A stretch of 64,000 nucleotides of DNA, taken from the NCBI RefSeq assembly GCF_002261265.1, contig NZ_NEVK01000008.1:124001-188000 (forward strand), written 5' to 3'. This document shows, piece by piece, positions 15,796 to 59,652 of this stretch. This DNA is from Bordetella genomosp. 7. Its GTDB lineage: Bacteria; Pseudomonadota; Gammaproteobacteria; Burkholderiales; Burkholderiaceae_B. Under the pieces are notes generated by a model that was given only the letters and a program-made list of their open reading frames with translations, searched no databases and was not told where the DNA came from. The position numbers and the translations under genes are program-made. Each line of letters begins with the position of its first letter. Within the stretch, counting starts at the first letter, position 1.

Positions 15796-16359
15796 ATGAC
15801 AACCGTCCGACTGCTGCGCTACCTTACGTTGCTCGCCTTAACTTCCGTCGCGCCTTGCGGCCTGGCACAATCCGGCACCTTGTTGTTCCAGGGCACGATC
15901 GCCGCCAACAGCTGCGCCGTACATACTCACGCCCATGGCGCACCGGTACGAAGCCTATCGCCCACATTTACCGTCGATCTTCCCACCGTAGGTACCGACG
16001 CACTCACCACGCGCGGGCAAACCGCCGGATGGTCGCCGTTTGTCATCCGTATAGGGCAATGCGGCGGGTTCGCCAGGCTGGTTCGAGCACACTTCGAGCC
16101 GGGCACCTTCGTCGACCCTGCTACCGGTCGCCTGGACGTCGACGCCCACAGTTCCGCCCGCAATGTGCAGATCGCGCTGCGCGAACAGGGTAGCGCCCGA
16201 CACATACTCATCGGTGCGCCCGTCGGGCAACAAGGGCCGACGCCGCAACTTCTGCAAGACCACGCCATGCTGGTCTATGAAGCGGGCTATTACGCCCTGG
16301 GCCAGGCGTCGCCCGGCAGTGTGCGAACTAGCGTCGAATACAACCTGGTCTATCACTGA
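15796..16359 (+). CDS. Fimbrial major-subunit-type pilin (first of two)
   Basis: A 187-residue chaperone-usher pilin. A signal peptide ends near PCGLAQ. The mature start GTLLFQGTIAANSC and the two-cysteine pattern (NSC and QCGG) match the disulfide of FimA/Fim2-type pilins. The C-terminus YEAGYYALG ... SVEYNLVYH carries the penultimate aromatic residue that the chaperone recognises. It is clearly paralogous to the next gene. No poly-C tract, the phase-variation device of B. pertussis fim2/fim3, is seen upstream. Confidence 0.88.
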   Translation: MTTVRLLRYLTLLALTSVAPCGLAQSGTLLFQGTIAANSCAVHTHAHGAPVRSLSPTFTVDLPTVGTDALTTRGQTAGWSPFVIRIGQCGGFARLVRAHFEPGTFVDPATGRLDVDAHSSARNVQIALREQGSARHILIGAPVGQQGPTPQLLQDHAMLVYEAGYYALGQASPGSVRTSVEYNLVYH

Positions 16360-16406: not shown

Positions 16407-16464
16407 TTTCCTATACCTTGGTCGGAATTTTCATCCATTTTTAAACAGGCTTCATACCTAGACT
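16407..16464 (+). promoter_or_regulatory. Candidate BvgA-type operator and promoter of the second pilin gene
   Basis: TTTCCTA at 16407-16413 is an exact match to the heptad bound by BvgA. Related TTTCATC (16429-16435) and TTCATA (16451-16456) follow with their C residues 22 and 21 bp apart, the step expected for side-by-side BvgA dimers. TAGACT at 16459-16464 could be the -10 box; no -35 hexamer is evident, which fits activator dependence. The call rests on matching by eye; the neighbouring BvgA-like regulator makes it plausible. Confidence 0.45.
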
Positions 16465-16529: not shown

Positions 16530-17096
16530 ATGAAACTGTCTCGCATTGCCAGCCTGCTCGCGGGCGCTGGGGTTCTGGCCGCCGCCAACGTGGCCCTCGC
16601 CAGCGAAGGCACCATCCATTTCACTGGCGAAATCCAGGCCAGCACCTGCGTGGTTGACCACGCCAACCCGCACAGCCAAACAGTAGGCCTGCTGCCGGTC
16701 AACGCCACCGCGTTCACCGGCACCGGCAGCACCGCCGGCTGGCAGCAGTTCGAAATCAAACTGAAAGACTGCTCGGGCACCACGTACAGCACGGCCCGTG
16801 CCATCTTCGAATCCGGCACCACGGTCAACGCGCAAGGCCGCCTGTACAACACCGATGAAACCGGCAGCGTGGCCGGCGCGGCCACCGGGGTCGAACTGCA
16901 GTTGCGCCAAGCCGCAAGCGGCCAGCTGATCACCATCGGCAGCCCCACCCAGGCCGCGCTGGACGGCTTTGACATCGACACCACCGCAGGCACCGCCACG
17001 ATGCGCTACGAAGCGGGCTATTACGCCGCGGATGCCACGGCCGTAACACCCGGCAGCGTCGCCTCGTCGGTGACCTACTCGGTGAACTACGAGTAA
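16530..17096 (+). CDS. Fimbrial major pilin subunit (second of two)
   Basis: A 188-residue pilin of the Fim2/Fim3/FimA type. TTAGGAG precedes the ATG. The signal peptide ends near NVALA; the mature protein begins SEGTIHFTGEIQASTC, and the second cysteine is in LKDCSG, giving the conserved disulfide. The C-terminal MRYEAGYYAADA ... VTYSVNYE has the alternating hydrophobic donor-recognition pattern with a penultimate tyrosine. It has its own candidate promoter and is followed by a strong hairpin, as expected for the most abundant subunit of the operon. Confidence 0.9.
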   Translation: MKLSRIASLLAGAGVLAAANVALASEGTIHFTGEIQASTCVVDHANPHSQTVGLLPVNATAFTGTGSTAGWQQFEIKLKDCSGTTYSTARAIFESGTTVNAQGRLYNTDETGSVAGAATGVELQLRQAASGQLITIGSPTQAALDGFDIDTTAGTATMRYEAGYYAADATAVTPGSVASSVTYSVNYE

Positions 17097-17138: not shown

Positions 17139-17172
17139 GTGCGGCCGCGCATGCTTGCTTGCGCGGCCGCAC
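17139..17172 (+). terminator. Long GC hairpin between major pilin and chaperone genes
   Basis: A perfect 12-bp stem (GTGCGGCCGCGC with GCGCGGCCGCAC) encloses a 10-base loop, 42 bp after the pilin stop. There is no T-run. In fimbrial operons such a structure commonly protects or attenuates the transcript so that pilin is made in excess over chaperone and usher; that role is inferred here. Confidence 0.55.
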
Positions 17173-17220
17173 CCCGGCCGCGGCGAACCCTTGGCCGGGC
17201 TCGCAAGACCAGGAATTTCC

Positions 17221-17967
17221 ATGCTCATCCGCCGCTTGTTCTCTGCCATATCCGTAGCCATCACATGCGCAGCCGCCTCCGCCCCGGCCGACGCATCGAT
17301 CGTCATCGGCGCCACCCGCGTCGTTTACGACGCCGCCAGCGGTGAAAAAACCGTGCGTCTTACCAACAAGGCAGCGGCGCCCGTACTGATGCAGGCCTGG
17401 CTGGACACCGGAGATCCGCAAGGCGCCCGCTCGGCGCTCGTCGTACCGTTCATCGTCTCGCCTGCCATGGCCCGCATCGATCCTGAGAAAAGCCAGACGC
17501 TGCGCATTCTTCATACCGGCGAGCCTCTTGCGCAAGACCGCGAAAGCGTGTTTTGGCTGAACGTGCTTGGCATCCCGCCGCGCCCCGACGCCAACGACCA
17601 AAAGAATTTCCTGCAGTTGTCCATCCGCTCGCGCATCAAGCTGTTCTACCGGCCGGCAGGGTTGGCGGGTAGCGCCATGGATGCGGCGGCGAAGCTCAAC
17701 TGGCGCCTGGCCCGCTCGGGCCCCACCGCACTCGAAGTCACCAATCCCACGCCGTTCTACGTGAGTTTTGCCAGTGTCGAACTCGTTTCAGGCGCCCAGG
17801 CTTCTGCAGTGGACGAACCCGGCATGCTGGCTCCCTTCGAAACGCGGACGATGCGCTTGCCACGCGCCGCATCCTCCTCGGCAGGAGCCCGGGTCCGCTA
17901 TCAGTTCATCAACGACTATGGCGGCACGACTTCCGGCGAAGCCGCATTGCACGACGTTCCGCGCTAG
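17221..17967 (+). CDS. Periplasmic fimbrial chaperone (PapD/FimB-like)
   Basis: A 248-residue chaperone with two immunoglobulin-like domains. The ATG at 17221 has AGGA upstream; an earlier in-frame ATG falls in the loop of the intercistronic hairpin and is unlikely. A signal peptide ends near APADAS. The mature start IVIGATRVVYDAASGEKTVRLTNK includes the arginine of the pilin-carboxylate cleft, and the family signature FWLNVLGIPP is present with a conserved lysine in SRIKLFYRP. It works in the periplasm, folding pilins by donor-strand complementation. The usher gene follows 31 bp later. Confidence 0.93.
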   Translation: MLIRRLFSAISVAITCAAASAPADASIVIGATRVVYDAASGEKTVRLTNKAAAPVLMQAWLDTGDPQGARSALVVPFIVSPAMARIDPEKSQTLRILHTGEPLAQDRESVFWLNVLGIPPRPDANDQKNFLQLSIRSRIKLFYRPAGLAGSAMDAAAKLNWRLARSGPTALEVTNPTPFYVSFASVELVSGAQASAVDEPGMLAPFETRTMRLPRAASSSAGARVRYQFINDYGGTTSGEAALHDVPR

Positions 17968-17998
17968 CCGCGCAGCCCTCAGGCAAAGGCTAGATAAC

Positions 17999-20569
17999 AT
18001 GCTGCCCGTACGCTACATCCCGACCCGACGCCACTCGCTCAACCTGATACTGGCCTCGCTGGCTGCGTCGCTGTGGAACGCGGCCCAGGCTCAGGCCGCA
18101 CCCACACAGGTCGCAGAAGTTCGGTTCAACGCCGACATGGTGCGCAACTTCGGCGACACGGCTGTGGACGTCAGCCGTTTCAACCGCGGCAACTATGCCG
18201 CGCCGGGGGATTACACCGTTCCTGTGGTGGTCAACCACATACAAGCCGGACGCAGCACCGTGAGGGTGCGCCAGCTGGCCGGCGAAGCGTACCCGCAGCC
18301 CTGCATAGACGCCGATCTGCTGCTCCTCGCGGGAGTCAACCTTGGTCGGCTGGACGAGCCCACCCATGAACGCCTACGATCGGCGCCGTGCGGTCGATTG
18401 CACGACTTCATCCCTGACTCGCACGCCGAATTCGACAACGGCGAACAGCGGCTGACCATGAGCATTCCGCAGATATGGCTAAACCGCAGCGCACGCGGCT
18501 ATATCGACCCAAAATACTGGAATGAAGGTACCACCGCAGGCGTGCTGCGCTACAACGCGAACTTGTACCGGTACGCCGCCCGCCACGGCAACGACACCAC
18601 ACAGGCCTATGTGGGGCTGGACAGCGGCCTCAATCTTGGCGCCTGGCGACTGCGCCATCGCGGCAACCTGAACTACAGCAAAACCCAAGGTACCCGGTAT
18701 CAAAGCATACAAACCTATGCGCAGCGTTCGATTGGAACCATAAAGAGCCAGCTCACCGCCGGCGAATTCCATACCGAAGGCGCCGTGCTCGAAAGCATAG
18801 GTCTCACGGGCGTGGCCCTGTCCAGCGACGAACGCATGTACCCGGAATCGCAGCGCGGCTATGCCCCCACGATACGCGGCATTGCCAACAGCAATGCCCG
18901 CGTACGCGTGCTGCAGAATGGCAACGTCATATACGAAACCACGGTGGCGCCGGGCGAGTTCGAAATCGACGATCTGTACCCCACCGGATATGGTGGCGAC
19001 CTGCAAGTCGTCGTAACCGAAGCCGATGGCAGCGAACACATATCCATGGTGCCTTACTCGGCACCGGTCAACGCCCTGCGGGCCGGCACAACGCGCTACA
19101 GCGTGGCGGCCGGCCAGTACCGCAGCGCGCTGGTCAACGACAAGCCGTATGTCTTCCAGGGCACGGTACGCCATGGTTTCAACAACTTGCTGACGGGGTA
19201 CGGTGGCGTACTCGCATCCAAGCATTACCTTGCCGGCCAATTGGGCACAGCGCTCAATACCGCCATCGGCGCCTTCGGGTTGGACGCCACCTACGCGCGT
19301 GCCAAGTTGAACAACCAGGCCAACCGCACGGGCCAGAGCTATAGCGTGAGCTACTCGCGCTTCTTTGTACCCACCAGCACCAGTGTCACGCTGGCAGCCT
19401 ATCGATACTCCACCCGCGGGTTTCTCAGCCTGAGCGACACAATGGCATTGCGCTCGCCCGGATCACGGCACGGGTTGCCGCGCCACTATGGCGCCAATGC
19501 CAAGGGCCGCCTTCAAGTCATGTTGAACCAGCCATTGGGCGATCGGCTCGGATCAGTGTATTTGTCGGGATACAGCCAGAATTACTGGGGCTACGAAGGC
19601 CGTGACACAGAATACCAGGCGGGCTACCGCAACACGTATAAGCAGATCGGCTACAGCATCAGCGCTGCGCGCCAGTACAACGTGTACGACGGCAAGTGGG
19701 GCAACACCTACATGCTCAACGTCACCCTGCCGCTGGGCCGGTCTGCGGGTGCACCGAGATCCAGCACCAGCATCCGCCACAACAACCGTGACCACAGCAC
19801 GTCGATTTACGAAACAGTCAACGGAAGCCTGGGCCGGTCCGACAATCCGCTCTACTACGGCCTGAGCGCGAATCACGTACGGTCGCGCCACGGCATTGCG
19901 AACAACGTCAGCGCCAACGCGTCATGGATGTCGCCCTATGCCCAACTGGCAGGCAGTGCCAGCCGATCAAGGTCCGGCAGCCAAAGCAGCGCCAGCATTT
20001 CCGGCGCCGCCGTAGCCTGGGGTGGAGGAATGGCGCTGGCGCCAGCGTTAGGCGACACCTTCGCCATCGTGCAAGCGCAAGGTGCCGAAGGGGCGCGCCT
20101 AGCCAACATGAACGGCCTGCGGGTAGACGGGCGCGGCTACGGCCTGGTGCCTAACCTGACGCCATACGTACAAAACACGATCGAAGTCGACCCCAAAGGC
20201 TTGCCCCTGAACGTGCAGTTCAAATCCACCATCCAGCATGTGGCCCCCACCGCCGGCGCCGTCGTACCCGTGAAGTTCGAAGTGGAAGCCGGCGGCCACG
20301 CGGCAGTAATACGCGCGCACCTGGCAGACGGTAGCCCGCTACCCTTCGGCGCCGAAGTCCAGGATGCCCATGGCAACAGCATAGGCACCGTGGCGCAGGG
20401 CAGCCGCATCCTGGCCAACAACCTGAAAGACACGGCGGGCCGCCTGCGCGTCAAGTGGGGCGAATCCGTGCTGGAGCATTGTTCGGTGGATTACCGCATT
20501 CCCGACAACAACGGCAAGGACACACAGCAGTTCCATCTGTTGCAAGGCACCTGCGCGCAAGGACACTAA
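17999..20569 (+). CDS. Outer membrane fimbrial usher (FimC/PapC-like)
   Basis: An 856-residue usher that threads chaperone-pilin complexes through the outer membrane. The ATG at 17999 gives a signal peptide ending near AAQAQA and the usher N-domain start VRFNADMV. The family segments GIANSNARVRVLQNG-type plug hinge, APGEFEIDDLYPTGYGGDL and VVTEADGS are present, and the C-terminal domain (from about TAGAVVPVKFEVE) ends with paired cysteines in HCSVDYRIP and LQGTC. Length is normal. The adhesin gene starts 1 bp after the stop, so the two are co-translated or nearly so. In Bordetella the equivalent gene is called fimC. Confidence 0.94.
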   Translation: MLPVRYIPTRRHSLNLILASLAASLWNAAQAQAAPTQVAEVRFNADMVRNFGDTAVDVSRFNRGNYAAPGDYTVPVVVNHIQAGRSTVRVRQLAGEAYPQPCIDADLLLLAGVNLGRLDEPTHERLRSAPCGRLHDFIPDSHAEFDNGEQRLTMSIPQIWLNRSARGYIDPKYWNEGTTAGVLRYNANLYRYAARHGNDTTQAYVGLDSGLNLGAWRLRHRGNLNYSKTQGTRYQSIQTYAQRSIGTIKSQLTAGEFHTEGAVLESIGLTGVALSSDERMYPESQRGYAPTIRGIANSNARVRVLQNGNVIYETTVAPGEFEIDDLYPTGYGGDLQVVVTEADGSEHISMVPYSAPVNALRAGTTRYSVAAGQYRSALVNDKPYVFQGTVRHGFNNLLTGYGGVLASKHYLAGQLGTALNTAIGAFGLDATYARAKLNNQANRTGQSYSVSYSRFFVPTSTSVTLAAYRYSTRGFLSLSDTMALRSPGSRHGLPRHYGANAKGRLQVMLNQPLGDRLGSVYLSGYSQNYWGYEGRDTEYQAGYRNTYKQIGYSISAARQYNVYDGKWGNTYMLNVTLPLGRSAGAPRSSTSIRHNNRDHSTSIYETVNGSLGRSDNPLYYGLSANHVRSRHGIANNVSANASWMSPYAQLAGSASRSRSGSQSSASISGAAVAWGGGMALAPALGDTFAIVQAQGAEGARLANMNGLRVDGRGYGLVPNLTPYVQNTIEVDPKGLPLNVQFKSTIQHVAPTAGAVVPVKFEVEAGGHAAVIRAHLADGSPLPFGAEVQDAHGNSIGTVAQGSRILANNLKDTAGRLRVKWGESVLEHCSVDYRIPDNNGKDTQQFHLLQGTCAQGH

Positions 20570-20570
20570 C

Positions 20571-21692
20571 ATGCCATTGAATGCCATTTACGCCGCGCCC
20601 CGTGCCTTTGCACGACAGCCAGCCAGGCCCCTGCTCGCCCGGCTGGTTGCCGTCGCCTCACTGGCATTGGCCTGGGGAACCGCTGATGCGGCGCAGTACT
20701 CATGCACCTTCTTCAACCCGAATCGCACACAGTACATTCCGACTCCGACCCAAATCGTGCTAATGCCCGGAATGGAAACCAGCGGAACAAAATTCTCGGC
20801 GACCGATCCCGGCCCAGGGGGCCCGGGCCGTACGGTCGACTGCGAGCACGGAGCAAAGATCGAACCTACAGAGGGGTTGCGCAGGAATATTGACATCTAC
20901 CTATACTTTGACACCCCCTACTACCAATATGTGGATTCGAAAACGATACGCCTGGGAACCTCGAACTTCGGTCTGCGCCTGACGACCGCCGGCCGCACAA
21001 TCCAGAACAATCCACTGCGCATGGCGTGGGGCGATATAGGGTACCGAAACGATACCTTCGAGATCTGGTACGGCAATGGTGGTCAGGTAGATTTTGAACT
21101 GGTCCACTTGGGATCGGGCCCAGTCGACGGAAGCGTGGTAAAGCTGTCGGAATCTGGGCTATTCGCGCGAGCGATGGTTGCGATCAAGGGGGTAGATCCT
21201 TATGGCCGGGATTTGGTCTCCAACGAGCTGGTGACTCTATTGTGGAGCAACAACGAAGTTCCAGTTTCTCAAACGACTTGCAAGGTCGCCGATCGCACAG
21301 TAACGCTGGGCACCCACGATTTCGGCGGCGGCACGATAGGATCGACGTCGCCCGCCCAAGACTTTGCAATTTCGATGACCAATTGCCCTACTGGCGTGCC
21401 GATCTATTACCGCATCGATCCCGCCACTGCGGTGGTTCCTGGCCCCCCGGGCGCAAACTCGTCGCTGATGGAACTGGATAGCAGCACGTCCATTGCGTCT
21501 GGTGTCGGCATCCAGCTGCTGCACCAGGACACCTCTCCGTTGCCCCTGGAAACCAAGATCACGCTCACGTCATCCGGCCTTGCTTATCCCAATTATGACC
21601 TGCAGCTAAAGGCACGCTATTACCAGATCAGCAATTCGGTAGTGCCCGGAACGGCTAATGCATCGGCCACGGTCACGATTACACACCAATGA
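20571..21692 (+). CDS. Fimbrial tip adhesin (FimD-like, two-domain)
   Basis: A 373-residue secreted protein, twice pilin length, as for two-domain tip adhesins. The signal peptide ends near TADAAQ. An N-terminal receptor-binding half (about 40-220, with cysteines in YSCTFF and VDCEHG) is followed by a pilin half (about 230-373) with TTCKV and TNCPTG cysteines and the terminal ASATVTITHQ strand. Position directly after the usher matches Bordetella fimD. The binding half is more A+T-rich and little conserved; its ligand cannot be inferred. Confidence 0.85.
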   Translation: MPLNAIYAAPRAFARQPARPLLARLVAVASLALAWGTADAAQYSCTFFNPNRTQYIPTPTQIVLMPGMETSGTKFSATDPGPGGPGRTVDCEHGAKIEPTEGLRRNIDIYLYFDTPYYQYVDSKTIRLGTSNFGLRLTTAGRTIQNNPLRMAWGDIGYRNDTFEIWYGNGGQVDFELVHLGSGPVDGSVVKLSESGLFARAMVAIKGVDPYGRDLVSNELVTLLWSNNEVPVSQTTCKVADRTVTLGTHDFGGGTIGSTSPAQDFAISMTNCPTGVPIYYRIDPATAVVPGPPGANSSLMELDSSTSIASGVGIQLLHQDTSPLPLETKITLTSSGLAYPNYDLQLKARYYQISNSVVPGTANASATVTITHQ

Positions 21693-21983
21693 CTCGACTG
21701 CATGGCAAGTGCGATTTGTCGCACGCTCGGCGGCATCTACTTATAGACCCAGGGCGACATCTGCGTAGCATTGCCGGAAGGCTCCGCATGCGCACCGCTT
21801 TCATGAACTCGCACGAATTCGCCGCCATGGGTTTGCCGCACCTTCAATGGCCGGAGTGCTTGGCCTCAACCTCTTCGGGCGTCGGCCCATTTGCGTCCAC
21901 GAACAAGGGCTCGGCCGAGCAAAGTGACATACGGGTCGATTACCTCTCTTTGGCATAGTTTGCCGGGCGTTCCGACTGCATCG

Positions 21984-23264
21984 ATGGCCGTCGCCTGCGT
22001 TGCGATACTTGCGGCAGTTGTCGTTCTGGCACTGGGTGCCACGCGCCCATCGAAAAACAATGCCAAACACGGCCACACGCCGGGCAATACGTGCCATACC
22101 TGCCGCCAAGCCGAAGCGGCATTGCGCACCAGATCGGCGTTCCTGGCCGCAATAAGCCATGACCTGCGCACCGCCATGAACGCGGTGGTGGGCATGCTGG
22201 AACTCACCCTGGTCAGCGGCTCGCTTGGGTTTGCCGAAAAACGTCAGCTCTCCACCGCACTGGATGCGTCGCGCTCGCTGCTGACGCTGGTGAACGACCT
22301 GCTCGATCTATCCCAACTGGAGTCGGGCAAGTTTGCCATCAGGCCGCAGGTGGCATCGGTGCCGAACGTGGTGCACGAAGTGCGTGAGCTTTTCGCGGCA
22401 ACGGCACAGCGCAAGGCGCTGACGCTGGACGCCCGGGTGTCGGGCAGGCTGGCGCCTGCTCACCTGGTTGACACGCTGCGTCTGAAACAAGTCTTGAACA
22501 ACTTGGTGTCCAACGCCATTTGCCATACACGACGCGGTCGCGTGCGCATCCGGGTGGCGGCGGCGCCTGCCAGCGTATTGCCTACGGGCGCAGGCATTCA
22601 ATGGATACGGTTTACGGTGTCGGACACTGGCGTCGGCATTCCGCCCGCTGCGCTGCCAACGCTGTTCGAACCGTTTGTGCAGGCCAACACGCCGGGCGCC
22701 GAGGGCGGCGTCGGGCTGGGCCTGTCTATCTGCAAGCAGCTGGTAGATGCGATGGGCGGGCGTATCCGGGTCTATAGCAGGCCGCAGCGTGGCACCCGGG
22801 TGCACGTAGAACTGCCGCTGGCCATCTCGGATGGCCACGCGGGCGCACTGGCGGGCCCGCCTGCCGCAAAAGCCCGGCTGCCCATACTTGTTGTGGACGA
22901 TCATGCGCCGAACCGCATTTTGTTGAATCAACAGTTGCAGACGCTGGGGCACCGTGCCGTATGCATCGAAGACGGCGCGCAGGCTTTGGCCGCCACGGAA
23001 CGGCAAGCCTTCAAGCTGGTGATTTGCGACTGCGCCATGCCGCGCATGAACGGGCTGGAGTTTGTGCGCGCGTTGCGAGCGGGCGGCAGCATGAATGCGG
23101 CGGTGCCGGTGCTGGGCTATACGGCCGGCGTGCAGAAGAGCTACGAGCAAGCGCTGCTGAATGCCGGCATGGATGCGGTGCTGGTAAAGCCCGTAGGTCT
23201 GGCAGACCTGCAACGGGCCCAGCACGCGCATCTGGCTGGTGAACAACAACCCGGCGGGTCATAG
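21984..23264 (+). CDS. Membrane hybrid histidine kinase, BvgS-like cytoplasmic module without periplasmic domain
   Basis: A hybrid sensor kinase of 426 residues from the ATG at 21984; a TTG start at 21891 would add 31 residues. It has one N-terminal membrane helix (about 2-19), then a short linker with a CxxC motif (C37, C40). The phospho-acceptor His59 lies in SHDLRTAMN. N (LNNLVSNA), G1 (DTGVGIPP) and G2 (GVGLGLSIC) ATPase boxes follow, then a receiver domain (about 300-415) with Asp349 and Lys402. BvgS/EvgS proteins have large periplasmic Venus-flytrap domains and a fused HPt; both are missing here. A separate HPt gene is convergent 6 bp away. The truncation may be functional or decay; all catalytic boxes are intact. 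Confidence 0.88.
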   Translation: MAVACVAILAAVVVLALGATRPSKNNAKHGHTPGNTCHTCRQAEAALRTRSAFLAAISHDLRTAMNAVVGMLELTLVSGSLGFAEKRQLSTALDASRSLLTLVNDLLDLSQLESGKFAIRPQVASVPNVVHEVRELFAATAQRKALTLDARVSGRLAPAHLVDTLRLKQVLNNLVSNAICHTRRGRVRIRVAAAPASVLPTGAGIQWIRFTVSDTGVGIPPAALPTLFEPFVQANTPGAEGGVGLGLSICKQLVDAMGGRIRVYSRPQRGTRVHVELPLAISDGHAGALAGPPAAKARLPILVVDDHAPNRILLNQQLQTLGHRAVCIEDGAQALAATERQAFKLVICDCAMPRMNGLEFVRALRAGGSMNAAVPVLGYTAGVQKSYEQALLNAGMDAVLVKPVGLADLQRAQHAHLAGEQQPGGS

Positions 23265-23269
23265 GCGCA

Positions 23270-23788
23270 TTAACGCCGGTGCGAAGCTTCTGCCGTGAAC
23301 GATCGCTGGGTGGCCGCAAGGTTGGCCCAGCCCTGCAATGCGTGCGACAGGCGCTGCACCGCAGCCGAGAATACGCCAAGCAGGCTTAGCAATGCCTGGC
23401 CATCACGTTGTTCGGCCAGCGCTTCCACGCGATGGCATAGCGCGGCCAGGGTGCCGGCGCCCGACAGTTGCGCAGTGTTCTTTATGCGATGCGCGTGCGC
23501 GCGCACGTCGGCCCAGTTTTTTTCGGCACAGGCGATCTGGATGTCGTGCAGGTCGGCCTGGTTGGTTTCCAGCAGGCTGGCCAGCAGTTCCGCGGCCACG
23601 GCGCTGTCATCGTTGACCAAGCGGAAAACATGCGCGCCTATGGCGCGGCATTCGTCTGCCGTGGGCAATGCTCCGGCTGTAATGAACTGGAAATGCGGCG
23701 CCGCAGCGCCTGGCGCGGCCGGCGCCGACGGGGCGGGGTGTGGCGGGCGGGGTAAGACATCCCGTGCTGAAACGACAGCGGCAGTCAT
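23270..23788 (-). CDS. Free-standing HPt phosphotransfer protein
   Basis: A 172-residue protein whose C-terminal 110 residues form an HPt four-helix domain with the acceptor His100 in AHRIKNTAQ (His-x-x-Lys). The N-terminal 35 residues are a Pro/Ala-rich tail. The start at 23788 lies 4 bp after the stop of the regulator gene; an earlier in-frame start at 23830 would overlap that gene. In BvgS and EvgS this domain is the C-terminus of the kinase, so here it appears split off. It should shuttle phosphate from the kinase receiver (Asp349) to the regulator (Asp54). Confidence 0.85.
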   Translation of the reverse strand: MTAAVVSARDVLPRPPHPAPSAPAAPGAAAPHFQFITAGALPTADECRAIGAHVFRLVNDDSAVAAELLASLLETNQADLHDIQIACAEKNWADVRAHAHRIKNTAQLSGAGTLAALCHRVEALAEQRDGQALLSLLGVFSAAVQRLSHALQGWANLAATQRSFTAEASHRR

Positions 23789-23792
23789 GGAA

Positions 23793-24416
23793 TCAGGAAA
23801 CGATACGGTTCTTGCGCGCGAAGTCGACAAGTTCGACCAGGGTGCGCACGCCCAGCTTGGCCATCAGCCGCGTCTTGTATGTGCTGACCGTTTTGTTGCT
23901 GATGAACAGGGTTTCGCCGATGGCTTTGTTGCTCATGCCACTGGCCAGCAGTTTCGTGACGGTGATTTCGCGGTCGGACAGCAGGCTGATGACGTCGGCG
24001 GCCGGGCGGGCCGCCGCCTGGGGCGCGGCGCAATCGTCCGGGTACACGCTATAGCCGGCCAACACGGTTTCGATGGCGCGCACGATTTCGGTGACGTCCT
24101 GGGTTTTGCTGATGTAGCCCTGCGCCCCCGCCGCCCTGACACGCGGCGCGTACAAGAGGGGATCTTGCGCGGATATGACCAGAATGCGGGTGTCGGGCCT
24201 GGCCTGCTTGATACGAGGGATGGTGTCCAGGCCGTTGAGCCGGGGCAAGTCCAGGTCGAGCACTACCAGGCGGGGTTGAACCTCGCGCACCAGACGGACG
24301 GCATCTTGCCCGTTGCTTGCTTCGATGATCTGCGTAACGCCCAGCATCTGCGAAAGCTGCTGCCGTATTACCAGCCGCAATGACGGGTGATCGTCGACGA
24401 TGAGCACGCTAGTCAC
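23793..24416 (-). CDS. BvgA-like response regulator (NarL/LuxR family)
   Basis: A 207-residue regulator with a receiver domain (about 1-120; DD at 8-9, acceptor Asp54 in VVLDLDLPRLNG, Lys in YISKTQ) and a LuxR-type DNA-binding domain (about 140-207). The recognition helix region ISNKTVSTYKTRL is the same as I recall for BvgA, and with the GTG start at 24416 the acceptor falls at residue 54 as in BvgA. A TTG at 24485 is an alternative start. It is first in a two-gene unit with the HPt gene and probably controls the fimbrial operon nearby, which is inference. Confidence 0.9.
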   Translation of the reverse strand: MTSVLIVDDHPSLRLVIRQQLSQMLGVTQIIEASNGQDAVRLVREVQPRLVVLDLDLPRLNGLDTIPRIKQARPDTRILVISAQDPLLYAPRVRAAGAQGYISKTQDVTEIVRAIETVLAGYSVYPDDCAAPQAAARPAADVISLLSDREITVTKLLASGMSNKAIGETLFISNKTVSTYKTRLMAKLGVRTLVELVDFARKNRIVS

Positions 24417-24579
24417 GAGTTGGTTTACCCATTGCTGTTTGCCTTTTCGGGGTCTTTGCCACAGATAGGCATTGTCGCGACGCAAGCCGTAAACTTTATT
24501 GATCTAAGACAAACCGAGCTTGCGTGGCTGATGGCAGTAGCGTCGCCCGCGCCCGCCTGGCAACAGTAGGAACCTGTAT

Positions 24580-25470
24580 ATGACGCGCGGCGCGGATGTA
24601 TTTGCCACCGCCCTGGCCCCGGCCATCTGGGGCAGCACGTATATCGTGACAACCGAGTTCCTGCCCCAGGGGTACCCCTTGACGGTGGCCATGCTGCGAG
24701 CCCTGCCTGCAGGGCTGTTGCTGCTGCTGTGGGCGCGACGCCTGCCTCGTGGGATCTGGTGGCTGCGCAGCCTGGCCCTGGGCTCGCTGAACTTCGCGCT
24801 GTTCTGGGCCATGCTGTTCGTGACGGCCTACCGGCTGCCCGGCGGGGTCGCCGCCACGCTGGGCGCTATTCAGACACTGATTGTGATCGGACTGGCGCGC
24901 GTCCTGCTGGGTTCGCCGGTACGCGGCTGGTCGGTCGTGGCGGCGCTGGCCGGCATAGGCGGCGTGGCCTTGCTGGTGCTGACGCCATCCGCCGCGCTGG
25001 ACCCCTATGGTGTGGCCGCGGGGCTGGTCGGGGCGGCGGCAATGGCGCTGGGCACCGTCCTGAGCCGCCGGTGGCAGCCGCCGGTGTCTGCGCTTACCTT
25101 CGCAAGCTGGCAACTGCTGGCCGGCGGGCTGGTGCTGCTGCCTTTTGCGGCGTGGCTGGAACCGCCCCTGCCGGAACTGACCGCGGCCAATATCGGGGGG
25201 CTGGCGTACCTGGCCGTGATAGGCGGCGCTTTTACCTACGCGCTGTGGTTTCGCGGGCTGGCGCGGCTGGGGCCTGCGGCGGTGGCGGCACTGGGGTTTC
25301 TGAGCCCCATGACGGCCGTGATACTGGGATGGGGCTTGCTGGGGCAAAGCCTGACGCTGCCGCAACTGGTGGGCATGATCGTCGTTATTGGCAGTGTGTG
25401 GGTAGTGCAACGCGCGCAGGCCTCCGCGCCCCGCGCGGCGCCTGGGGTTGCGCGGGCAGAGCGGCGTTGA
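24580..25470 (+). CDS. EamA/DMT family transporter
   Basis: A 296-residue inner-membrane protein with about ten hydrophobic helices arranged as two EamA repeats. The start ALAPAIWGSTYIVTTEFLPQG and the second-repeat segment GGAFTYALWFRGLARLGPAAVAALGFLSPMTA are characteristic of the YdcZ/RhaT/PecM-like drug/metabolite exporters. It is divergent from the BvgA-like regulator gene with a 160-bp shared upstream region. Family members export amino acids, nucleobases or other metabolites; the substrate is unknown. Confidence 0.92.
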   Translation: MTRGADVFATALAPAIWGSTYIVTTEFLPQGYPLTVAMLRALPAGLLLLLWARRLPRGIWWLRSLALGSLNFALFWAMLFVTAYRLPGGVAATLGAIQTLIVIGLARVLLGSPVRGWSVVAALAGIGGVALLVLTPSAALDPYGVAAGLVGAAAMALGTVLSRRWQPPVSALTFASWQLLAGGLVLLPFAAWLEPPLPELTAANIGGLAYLAVIGGAFTYALWFRGLARLGPAAVAALGFLSPMTAVILGWGLLGQSLTLPQLVGMIVVIGSVWVVQRAQASAPRAAPGVARAERR

Positions 25471-25504: not shown

Positions 25505-25803
25505 GGTGTCTGACACCCTTCGGGAGTCAGACACCTGGATTGCTGGCGATGTGCTGCGTCCGGCTGTGAGTGTCTGACACCCTTCAAGAATCAGACACCG
25601 GGATTGCTGGCGATCTGCTGCGTTCGGCTGTGAGTGTCAGACACCCTTCGGGAGTCAGACACCTGGATTGCTGGCGATGTGCTGCGTTCGGCTGTGAGTG
25701 TCTGACACCCTTCGGGAGTCAGACACCTGGGTCACCTGAGCGGCGCCTGGACTGCGGAACGCGTTGCGCTCGGGTGTCTGACTCCCGAAGGGTGTCTGAC
25801 ACC
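25505..25803. repeat. Hairpin repeat array 1 (five units)
   Basis: Units lie at 25505-25535, 25570-25599, 25634-25663, 25698-25727 and 25773-25803. Each is a 13-mer such as GGTGTCTGACACC, a short CTTC/GAAG linker and a second arm GGAGTCAGACACC, able to fold into one hairpin. The first four are tandem with a 64-bp period and nearly identical 34-bp spacers; the fifth is in the opposite orientation after a different spacer. The array fills most of the 477-bp gap between the DMT and hmuS genes; no gene is seen there. Confidence 0.95.
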
Positions 25804-38687: not shown

Positions 38688-38867
38688 GGTGTCAGGCACC
38701 TTCGGAGCCTGACACCCCACACGCCACAGACAGCCCCTCGATAAGCCAGGCCGCCCGCTACCCGGTGTCTGACTCCAAAGGTGTCAGACACCGCTGCGAT
38801 ACAGCCCAGGTGGCCCCGATGAGCCAGGCCGGCCCTCCACGCGGAGGCTGACCCAAAGGTGTCAGAC
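38688..38867. repeat. Hairpin repeat array 2 (two units and one degenerate)
   Basis: Units at 38688-38716 and 38764-38792, with a degenerate third at 38844-38867. The first unit differs from the consensus by two pairs of changes on opposite arms (GGTGTCAGGC facing GCCTGACACC), so pairing is kept. The array lies upstream of the FAN1-like gene, in the gap behind the PhyH gene. Confidence 0.9.
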
Positions 38868-48097: not shown

Positions 48098-48511
48098 GGT
48101 GTCTGACACCTGGCGGAGTCAGACACCTGTAGGCTGTCTTGAATGGGACGGGCTTGGTGTCCGGGAGATGGCCTGGGTGTCTGACTCCGAAAGGTGTCAG
48201 ACACCTGTAGGCTGTCTTGAATGGGGCGGCCTGGTGTCCGGGAGATGGCCTGGGTGTCTGACTCCGAAAGGTGTCAGACACCGACGGGTACACCTAGCTG
48301 GCGCCCGCATTCGCGCAACGATGACGGCAAGGGGTGCGCGGGGGTGTCTGACACCTGGCGGAGTCAGACACCTGTGGGCTGTCTTGAATGAGACGGGCCT
48401 GGCGTCCGGGAGATGGCCTGGGTGTCTGACTCCGAAAGGTGTCAGACACCTGTGGGCTGTCTTGAATGGGGCGGGCCTGGTGTCCGGGAGACGGCCTGGG
48501 TGTCAGACACC
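48098..48511. repeat. Hairpin repeat array 3 (five units and a half unit) with an internal duplication
   Basis: Units at 48098-48127, 48176-48205, 48253-48282, 48343-48372 and 48421-48450, then a half at 48499-48511. Loops are CC-TGGC-GG or CC-GAAA-GG. Spacers related to TGTAGGCTGTCTTGAATGGG separate most units. The block 48298-48372 repeats 48050-48127, including the last codons of the channel gene. Together with a featureless stretch it fills the 557-bp gap up to thpR; no gene is seen. Confidence 0.93.
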
Positions 48512-51320: not shown

Positions 51321-51470
51321 GGTGGTGTCAGACAGCGCCGTTTAAAGGTGTCTGACACCCAAAGGGAGTCAGACACCTGGCTCGAGCCGGTCCGCCCCCG
51401 CAACGGTGCCCGCAACGGTGCCCGCAAAGGTGCCTGCAAAGGTGTCTGACACCCTTTGGTTCCAGACACC
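51321..51470. repeat. Hairpin repeat array 4 with a 12-bp tandem repeat
   Basis: A clear unit lies at 51347-51377 and a degenerate one at 51441-51470, with a half-like GGTGTCAGAC at 51324-51333. Between them four tandem 12-mers (51399-51446) change stepwise from CGCAACGGTGCC to TGCAAAGGTGTC and run straight into the second unit. The array occupies half of the 313-bp gap before the TauD-type gene; the remainder carries a 7-bp stem (51514-51535) and no gene. Confidence 0.88.
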
Positions 51471-55488: not shown

Positions 55489-55790
55489 GGTGTCTGACAC
55501 CCTTCGGGAGTCAGACACCGGTGGCTTGTAGCCGAACTGGCCGGGGGGCATGTTAGGTGTCTGACTCCCACAGGGTGTCAGACACCGGCCGCGTTGCAGC
55601 CGAACTTGCCGAGGGACATGTTGGGTGTCTGACTCCCGCAGGGTGTCTGACACCGGCCGCGTTGCAGCCGAACTCGCCGAGGGACATGTTGGGTGTCTGA
55701 CTCCCGCAGGGTGTCTGACACCGGCCGCGTTGCAGCCGAACTCGCCGAGGGACATGTTGGGTGTCTGACTCCCGCAGGGTGTCAGACACC
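55489..55790. repeat. Hairpin repeat array 5 (five units)
   Basis: Units lie at 55489-55519, 55556-55586, 55624-55654, 55692-55722 and 55760-55790. The first is in one orientation; the next four are inverted (inner CCC-GCA-GGG) and form a tandem block of 68-bp period with almost identical 37-bp spacers. The array occupies most of the 410-bp gap between the MFS and SDR genes, with no gene in the gap. Confidence 0.95.
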
Positions 55791-59503: not shown

Positions 59504-59652
59504 GGTGTCTGACACCCTTCGGGAATCAGACACCGGTAGAGCAAATGGACGGCGTGTGCTGTATGGGCGTCTGACTCCCGAAGGGTGTCAGACACCGGTA
59601 AACGGCGGCCTGTGCTCTATTGGTGTCTGACTCCCAAAGGGTGTCAGACACC
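59504..59652. repeat. Hairpin repeat array 6 (three units)
   Basis: Units at 59504-59534 (forward), 59566-59594 and 59622-59652 (both inverted). It fills the 170-bp gap between the convergent lysR and ilvD genes and so could also act as a two-way transcription stop. The two spacers share the ending GGC-GTGTGCTGTAT / GGC-CTGTGCTCTAT. Confidence 0.92.

Follow-up and report, generated by a model that had tools for sequence, protein, structure and literature searches.

How far can a BvgAS-type phosphorelay be reduced, and what could the reduced form control? The question is raised by three adjoining genes, for a hybrid kinase, a free HPt protein and a response regulator, in a 64-kb stretch of DNA (called here the window, always at its full length) from an assembly of 4.13 Mb in 8 contigs, rated 100% complete. 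In a sequence-only reading, these genes had been interpreted as a BvgAS-like relay distributed over three proteins and devoid of periplasmic sensing. The Pfam domains, the phospho-sites and the orthology with the bvg locus of Bordetella petrii bear this out, and all the residues named in that reading are present: His59 and Asp349 in the one-helix kinase, His100 in the separate HPt protein, and Asp54 and the segment ISNKTVSTYKTRL in the LuxR-type regulator. The three genes form the 3' part of a larger locus with the order fimA1-fimA2-chaperone-usher-adhesin-kinase><HPt-regulator (Table 1).

Table 1. Relay genes, adjoining fimbrial genes and flanking transporter gene, in window coordinates
Feature	Position	Strand	Remarks
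fimA1-like fimbrial subunit	15796..16359	+	187 aa ORF; at the place of the first FimA match in G003, G004 and G008
Candidate regulator operator TTTCC-N17-TTTC	16407..16432	+	Upstream of fimA2; 22-bp period
fimA2, major fimbrial subunit	16530..17096	+	Pfam Fimbrial 1.4e-13
PapD-type fimbrial chaperone	17155..17967	+	PapD_N 6.5e-41
Outer-membrane usher	17996..20569	+	Usher 1.2e-162
Fimbrial adhesin or tip subunit	20571..21692	+	Fimbrial 6.6e-13, C-terminal part
Kinase, BvgS1 orthologue	21984..23264	+	426 aa from ATG; TM - short linker - HisKA - HATPase - REC; His59 (codon 22158), Asp349 (codon 23028)
Free HPt protein	23270..23788	-	172 aa; His100 (codon 23489-23491); Pfam Hpt 2e-10
BvgA-like response regulator	23793..24416	-	GTG start at 24416; Asp54 (codon 24255-24257)
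EamA transporter flanking the locus	24580..25470	+	Pfam; BvgS2 lies between regulator and EamA in G003, G004, G006 and G008, not in the window

The kinase matches the Pfam models HisKA (3.9e-14), HATPase_c (2.5e-31) and Response_reg (9.6e-22); its N-box begins at Asn172 and its receiver residues are Asp305, Asp349, Thr380 and Lys402. A single hydrophobic stretch is present, at the N-terminus, and is followed by about 30 residues, among them a pair of cysteines (CHTC) close to the inner face of the membrane that is not seen in five relatives, before the kinase domain begins. The start of the protein is uncertain, as the candidate starts have no clear Shine-Dalgarno sequence and GC3 is low before about position 22050. 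Pfam detected no PAS domain in the kinase at E ≤ 0.01, nor the periplasmic VFT domains plus PAS of the canonical BvgAS/EvgAS type, and both Pfam and a check of residues place the HPt in a separate protein rather than in the kinase chain.

The regulator matches Response_reg (6.8e-25) and GerE (1.4e-19), and EvgA is both its best NCBIfam match (2.3e-47, under the cut-off of that model) and its best match in the PDB; Asp54, counted from the GTG, is the same residue as Asp58 counted from 24428. The HPt protein had no PDB match at E ≤ 0.01. Only 4 nt separate the stop codon of the regulator from the ATG of the HPt gene, and these two genes are probably co-transcribed, while the kinase and HPt genes are convergent, with stops 5 nt apart. 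Scans of 21600-24700 for sigma-70 promoters and terminators gave 0 and 3 sites, respectively, not above shuffled sequences.

Elsewhere in the window we observed 31-nt palindromic repeats of the GTGTCTGACACCCTTCGGGAGTCAGACACC type at 25505-25803, with a 64-nt tandem spacing, and clusters of the GTGTCTGAC/GTCAGACAC core at 38764-38859, 48098-48502, 51325-51444, 55489-55781 and 59504-59641, a family that resembles REP-type repeats.

The relay is not confined to this genome. In the genus group of nine genomes (own included), six, again counting its own, have the kinase at E ≤ 1e-40 and G001, G002 and G007 have none, and five of the eight relatives (G003, G004, G005, G006 and G008) have the orthologous locus. 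The HPt protein is found in the same five at E ≤ 2.3e-25; among 150 genomes it has matches at E ≤ 1e-3 in 12, own included, the other six being weak (1.8e-6 to 5.6e-4). The convergent orientation of the kinase had been considered unusual, which does not hold, since all five relatives with the locus have the same layout of kinase against HPt and regulator, with EamA further on, and one kinase gene of B. petrii is also in reverse orientation (Linz 2016). The window kinase shares 52-58% identity, as well as position and orientation, with the BvgS1 proteins of the relatives, the open frames of which have 613-705 aa and include a PAS domain (by Pfam in all three scanned, by alignment in 5/5). A second kinase, BvgS2, follows the regulator in four of the five relatives and was undetected beside the relay in G005 and in the window. 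Identities between the HPt proteins were taken from tblastn segments, of which that of G004 overruns its stop codon.

In a tree of 41 regulators, the window regulator falls in a clade of six with the five relatives (support 100/99), to which a clade of ten (100/100) adds four same-order regulators from three genomes. A free HPt frame lies beside three of these four; none was found in 16 kb around the fourth, G395b. The window regulator lies outside a separate group of 12 rows (94/96), where fused-HPt kinases accompany those of G096, G043, G052, Pseudomonas koreensis, P. fulva, G054 and G013, and which also contains G083 (its Hpt match falls short of the cut-off), P. faucium and three further rows. 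The window regulator stands within a wider group of 28 rows with EvgA and FimZ, the support of which (91/90) is short of a bootstrap of 95. The tree covers neither a named classical BvgA nor the paralogue of the same genome (L012, for which tblastn gave no match); BvgA of B. petrii is 42-44% identical to that of other Bordetella (Linz 2016). In P. faucium (L038 8099-9106 (+)), we noticed that the HPt match occupies a separate open frame from that of the adjoining BvgA-like regulator, and free HPts may thus recur outside this order.

The adjoining fimbrial genes offer a candidate target. BvgA~P dimers bind DNA at a spacing of 22 bp (PMC7250471), and upstream of fimA2 we identified two half-sites with this period, TTTCC-N17-TTTC, which has a single exact match in the 64-kb window against 0.15 expected, a figure that is no blind test, since the pattern was built after seeing the fimA2 promoter. 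Among seven fimA promoters from four genomes, a comparison that leaves out the window's own fimA1, TTTCC is spaced by 22 bp in six and by 21 bp in the fimA1 promoter of G008, while other spacings from 12 to 33 bp occur in at most one of the seven. Promoters of the same fimA type are homologous, so that the seven are not independent cases; the upstream regions of fimA1 and fimA2 otherwise look different. The element before the fimA1 of the window is degenerate by eye. No 22-bp-spaced element was present at the unrelated fimA of G006, upstream of the regulator, kinase, chaperone and EamA genes of the window, or upstream of the G003 regulator. A looser pattern gave four matches in the window, one of them at fimA. 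Other patterns were set aside: the heptad TTTCCTA alone has one match against 1.13 expected, which is not significant, a pattern with the second half-site one base off found two unrelated matches and missed the site, and an over-specific pattern found nothing in 195 loci.

The recurrence of the spaced element in six of seven promoters makes the adjacent fimbriae a likely target, and the regulator likely controls them, in the way that cup fimbriae are controlled by RocA1. The spaced element before fimA2 thereby provides the relay with a concrete candidate target; the accounts found in the literature name no direct targets. The association is not an obligatory one, since an orthologous fimbrial operon adjoins the relay in G003, G004 and G008, an unrelated one in G006 (usher 34% identical) and none in the 18 kb of G005.

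We consider it probable that the locus is a split BvgAS of the B. petrii type, further reduced to a working but minimal relay that drives fimbriae and has little input control. The kinase would autophosphorylate on His59 and transfer the phosphate to Asp349 of its own receiver, from where it would pass to His100 of the free HPt and on to the regulator, at Asp54. In its phosphorylated form, this protein would then bind the 22-bp-spaced TTTCC half-sites upstream of fimA2 and activate the adjacent fimbrial operon, and the output would depend on how strongly the relay is expressed or on some input perceived by the linker or the membrane helix. With no periplasmic domain, PAS or second kinase, the relay itself is probably subject to little input regulation, and a constitutive bias is predicted; that it may be constitutive had already been suggested from the sequence as a possibility. 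The cytoplasmic part of EvgS alone is, in fact, constitutively active (PMC5573083), and the Pro to Ala change in the H-box of the kinase, given what its counterparts do in VicK and CrdS (see below), also speaks for such a bias. Nevertheless, in B. pertussis BvgS, uncoupling of the PAS domain from its flanking helices abolishes activity (PMC3726324), which counts against a simple rule that a kinase without PAS is on.

In a first alternative, the sensing side of the locus is decaying: without BvgS2 and PAS, the kinase would be losing its activity, and the regulator would act at a basal level or be phosphorylated by other donors. Regions are missing in two proteins. In addition to the PAS domain of the kinase, the HPt protein has an N-terminal region of about 42 residues, rich in Pro and Ala, where the relatives have about 115 residues ahead of the conserved HPt part. 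The longer region had no Pfam match in the three relatives scanned; in L116 9612-10289 (-) and L119 8237-8914 (-) it might be a degenerate receiver. Remnants of PAS or BvgS2 were sought in 21501-25000 by tblastn with the N-termini of the relatives and with BvgS2, and were discarded, as the searches returned the kinase, receiver and HPt themselves and the next-best matches were no better than chance (E from about 0.07 upwards). The presence of PAS and of a long HPt protein in the outgroup G395a makes loss the simpler reading, against which stand the short HPt proteins of G338 and G244; on this distribution, the missing PAS and HPt region would be losses, and the absence of BvgS2 may be one as well.

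We counted the changes unique to the window at those columns where the five other genomes all agree, and these amount to 24/105 in the HK part, 7/32 in the HPt core and 16/123 in the regulator; the receiver has 3/53 and EamA 3/205. HK values in the other genomes are 2/83 to 8/89, and G006 has 5/30 in HPt, 13/120 in the regulator and 16/218 in EamA. From these counts, an excess is clear for the HK part alone, the HPt excess being slight and the regulator close to that of G006. Three changes fall in kinase motifs, and each is unique to the window among 68 distinct HK cores (taken from 95 rows with a minimum length of 200 aa, some being gapped at the columns examined): an Ala in the H-box, where Pro is present in 59 of the 66 cores with a residue there, and a Cys-His in the N-box, where the commonest residues elsewhere are Lys/Arg (53/68) and Phe/Tyr (54/68). 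Cys and His at these N-box places may weaken ATP binding. An Asn in place of Gly at His+4 of the HPt was dropped as a candidate defect, as relatives have Ser (G005) or Ala (G395a) there. Against decay, all reading frames are open, the phospho-sites and the receiver are intact, and in the kinase, HPt and regulator genes the second codon positions differ least and the third most, so that, by this measure, constraint is still visible. We therefore regard decay of the sensing side as unlikely, while giving it some weight.

Rather less weight is given to a second alternative, according to which other hybrid kinases, themselves lacking an HPt, feed into the free HPt as a common hub, the window kinase being one of several inputs. 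An Hpt scan of the genome found three places: a CheA, the identity of which was confirmed by the Pfam domains H-kinase_dim, CheY-binding and CheW, the window HPt, and a frame of 110 aa. Three hybrid kinases (L003, L005 and L008, the three scanned) have HisKA, HATPase_c and Response_reg and no Hpt, so that they could in principle use a free HPt. They are, however, no close relatives of BvgS (identity 30% or less), and each of the five relatives with the HPt has it linked to the BvgS1 kinase. The 110-aa frame (G000:C4:686916-687855; L014, L192) lies directly after another LuxR-type regulator and reaches 23.9 bits with the Hpt model, the cut-off being 24.6; it is a possible second free HPt.

More doubtful still is a third reading, in which the relay is both sensor-less and phosphatase-deficient: with PAS and BvgS2 absent and the H-box Pro replaced by Ala, the pathway would not be reset and the fimbriae would be held on, and the CHTC linker may provide a redox input in place of PAS. 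The same replacement at this H-box place in VicK leaves autokinase activity nearly full and abolishes phosphatase activity (PMC3582566), and in CrdS the substitution P376A, taken as the same place, loses much of the phosphatase and keeps the kinase activity (PMC3510030); by analogy, the effect might carry over to a hybrid kinase. Cross-talk with a true BvgAS elsewhere in the genome, proposed together with a check for a canonical second bvgAS, is highly improbable, as searches with the kinase, regulator, BvgS2 and Hpt found no second Bvg system in this complete-rated assembly: the closest kinase and regulator after those of the relay share 33% and 29% identity with them, respectively, the best genome match of the G003 BvgS2 is the window kinase itself, and no hybrid kinase is among the Hpt matches.

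The reading that we favour, a reduced but working relay of the B. petrii type, is best judged beside known systems, and its core, a separate HPt and a kinase without a large periplasmic domain, is already in print. In B. petrii DSM 12804, Gross et al. (2008) described two kinases, BvgS1 (PAS, transmitter and receiver) and BvgS2, together with BvgA and an independent HPt, next to fimbrial genes and with no large periplasmic domains. This locus (bvg, Bpet4469-4472, beside the fimbrial Bpet4464-4468) resembles that of the window in its free HPt, its BvgA and its reversed kinase, and differs in having two kinases, a PAS in BvgS1 and a longer HPt, where the window has a single kinase, which lacks PAS, and an HPt of 172 aa. 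From the B. petrii relay, Gross et al. developed an argument on the origin of the BvgAS master regulator, and they proposed that the HPt was incorporated during evolution to pathogens (Gross et al., 2008). The earlier view that the relay "was split" is thus right about the separate proteins, while the direction of change proposed in print is the opposite.

In Cupriavidus metallidurans CH34 (Rmet_5710/5713/5714/5724), an independent HPt is likewise next to a BvgA, which shares 58% identity with the B. petrii protein, whereas BvgS1 keeps the periplasmic domain; according to the genome paper of this species, the counterparts of BvgS in three further Cupriavidus strains have no large periplasmic domain. 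Within the same family, G054 and G013 have, like the window, a short HK-REC kinase beside a BvgA-like regulator, with no PAS or large N-terminal domain. Their kinases, of 604 and 595 aa (L185 7702-9516 (+) and L188 8127-9914 (-)), follow the regulator, which belongs to another clade, and differ in carrying a C-terminally fused HPt (Pfam Hpt 3.1e-8 and 4.5e-6), which our own HPt model missed and Pfam found. Sensing has, as these fused kinases without PAS indicate, probably been lost more than once in Bvg-type kinases. BvgAS of the pathogenic bordetellae and EvgAS of E. coli share the His-Asp-His-Asp logic and the regulator family, and their kinases differ by periplasmic domains, PAS and a fused HPt. 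Roc1/Roc2 of P. aeruginosa likewise connect BvgS-type signalling to the control of chaperone-usher fimbriae, with the HPt fused in RocS1 and RocS2, and in E. coli fimZ adjoins the sfm fimbrial genes, with no kinase beside it within 8 kb. A form of the split Bvg relay with a single kinase and no PAS had no record in the literature searched, and what is new here is modest in extent: the absence of BvgS2 and of PAS in BvgS1, the shorter HPt, and the kinase motif changes together with many unique substitutions. This genome shows that a locus of the B. petrii type can shrink to a single PAS-less kinase with a minimal HPt and a regulator.
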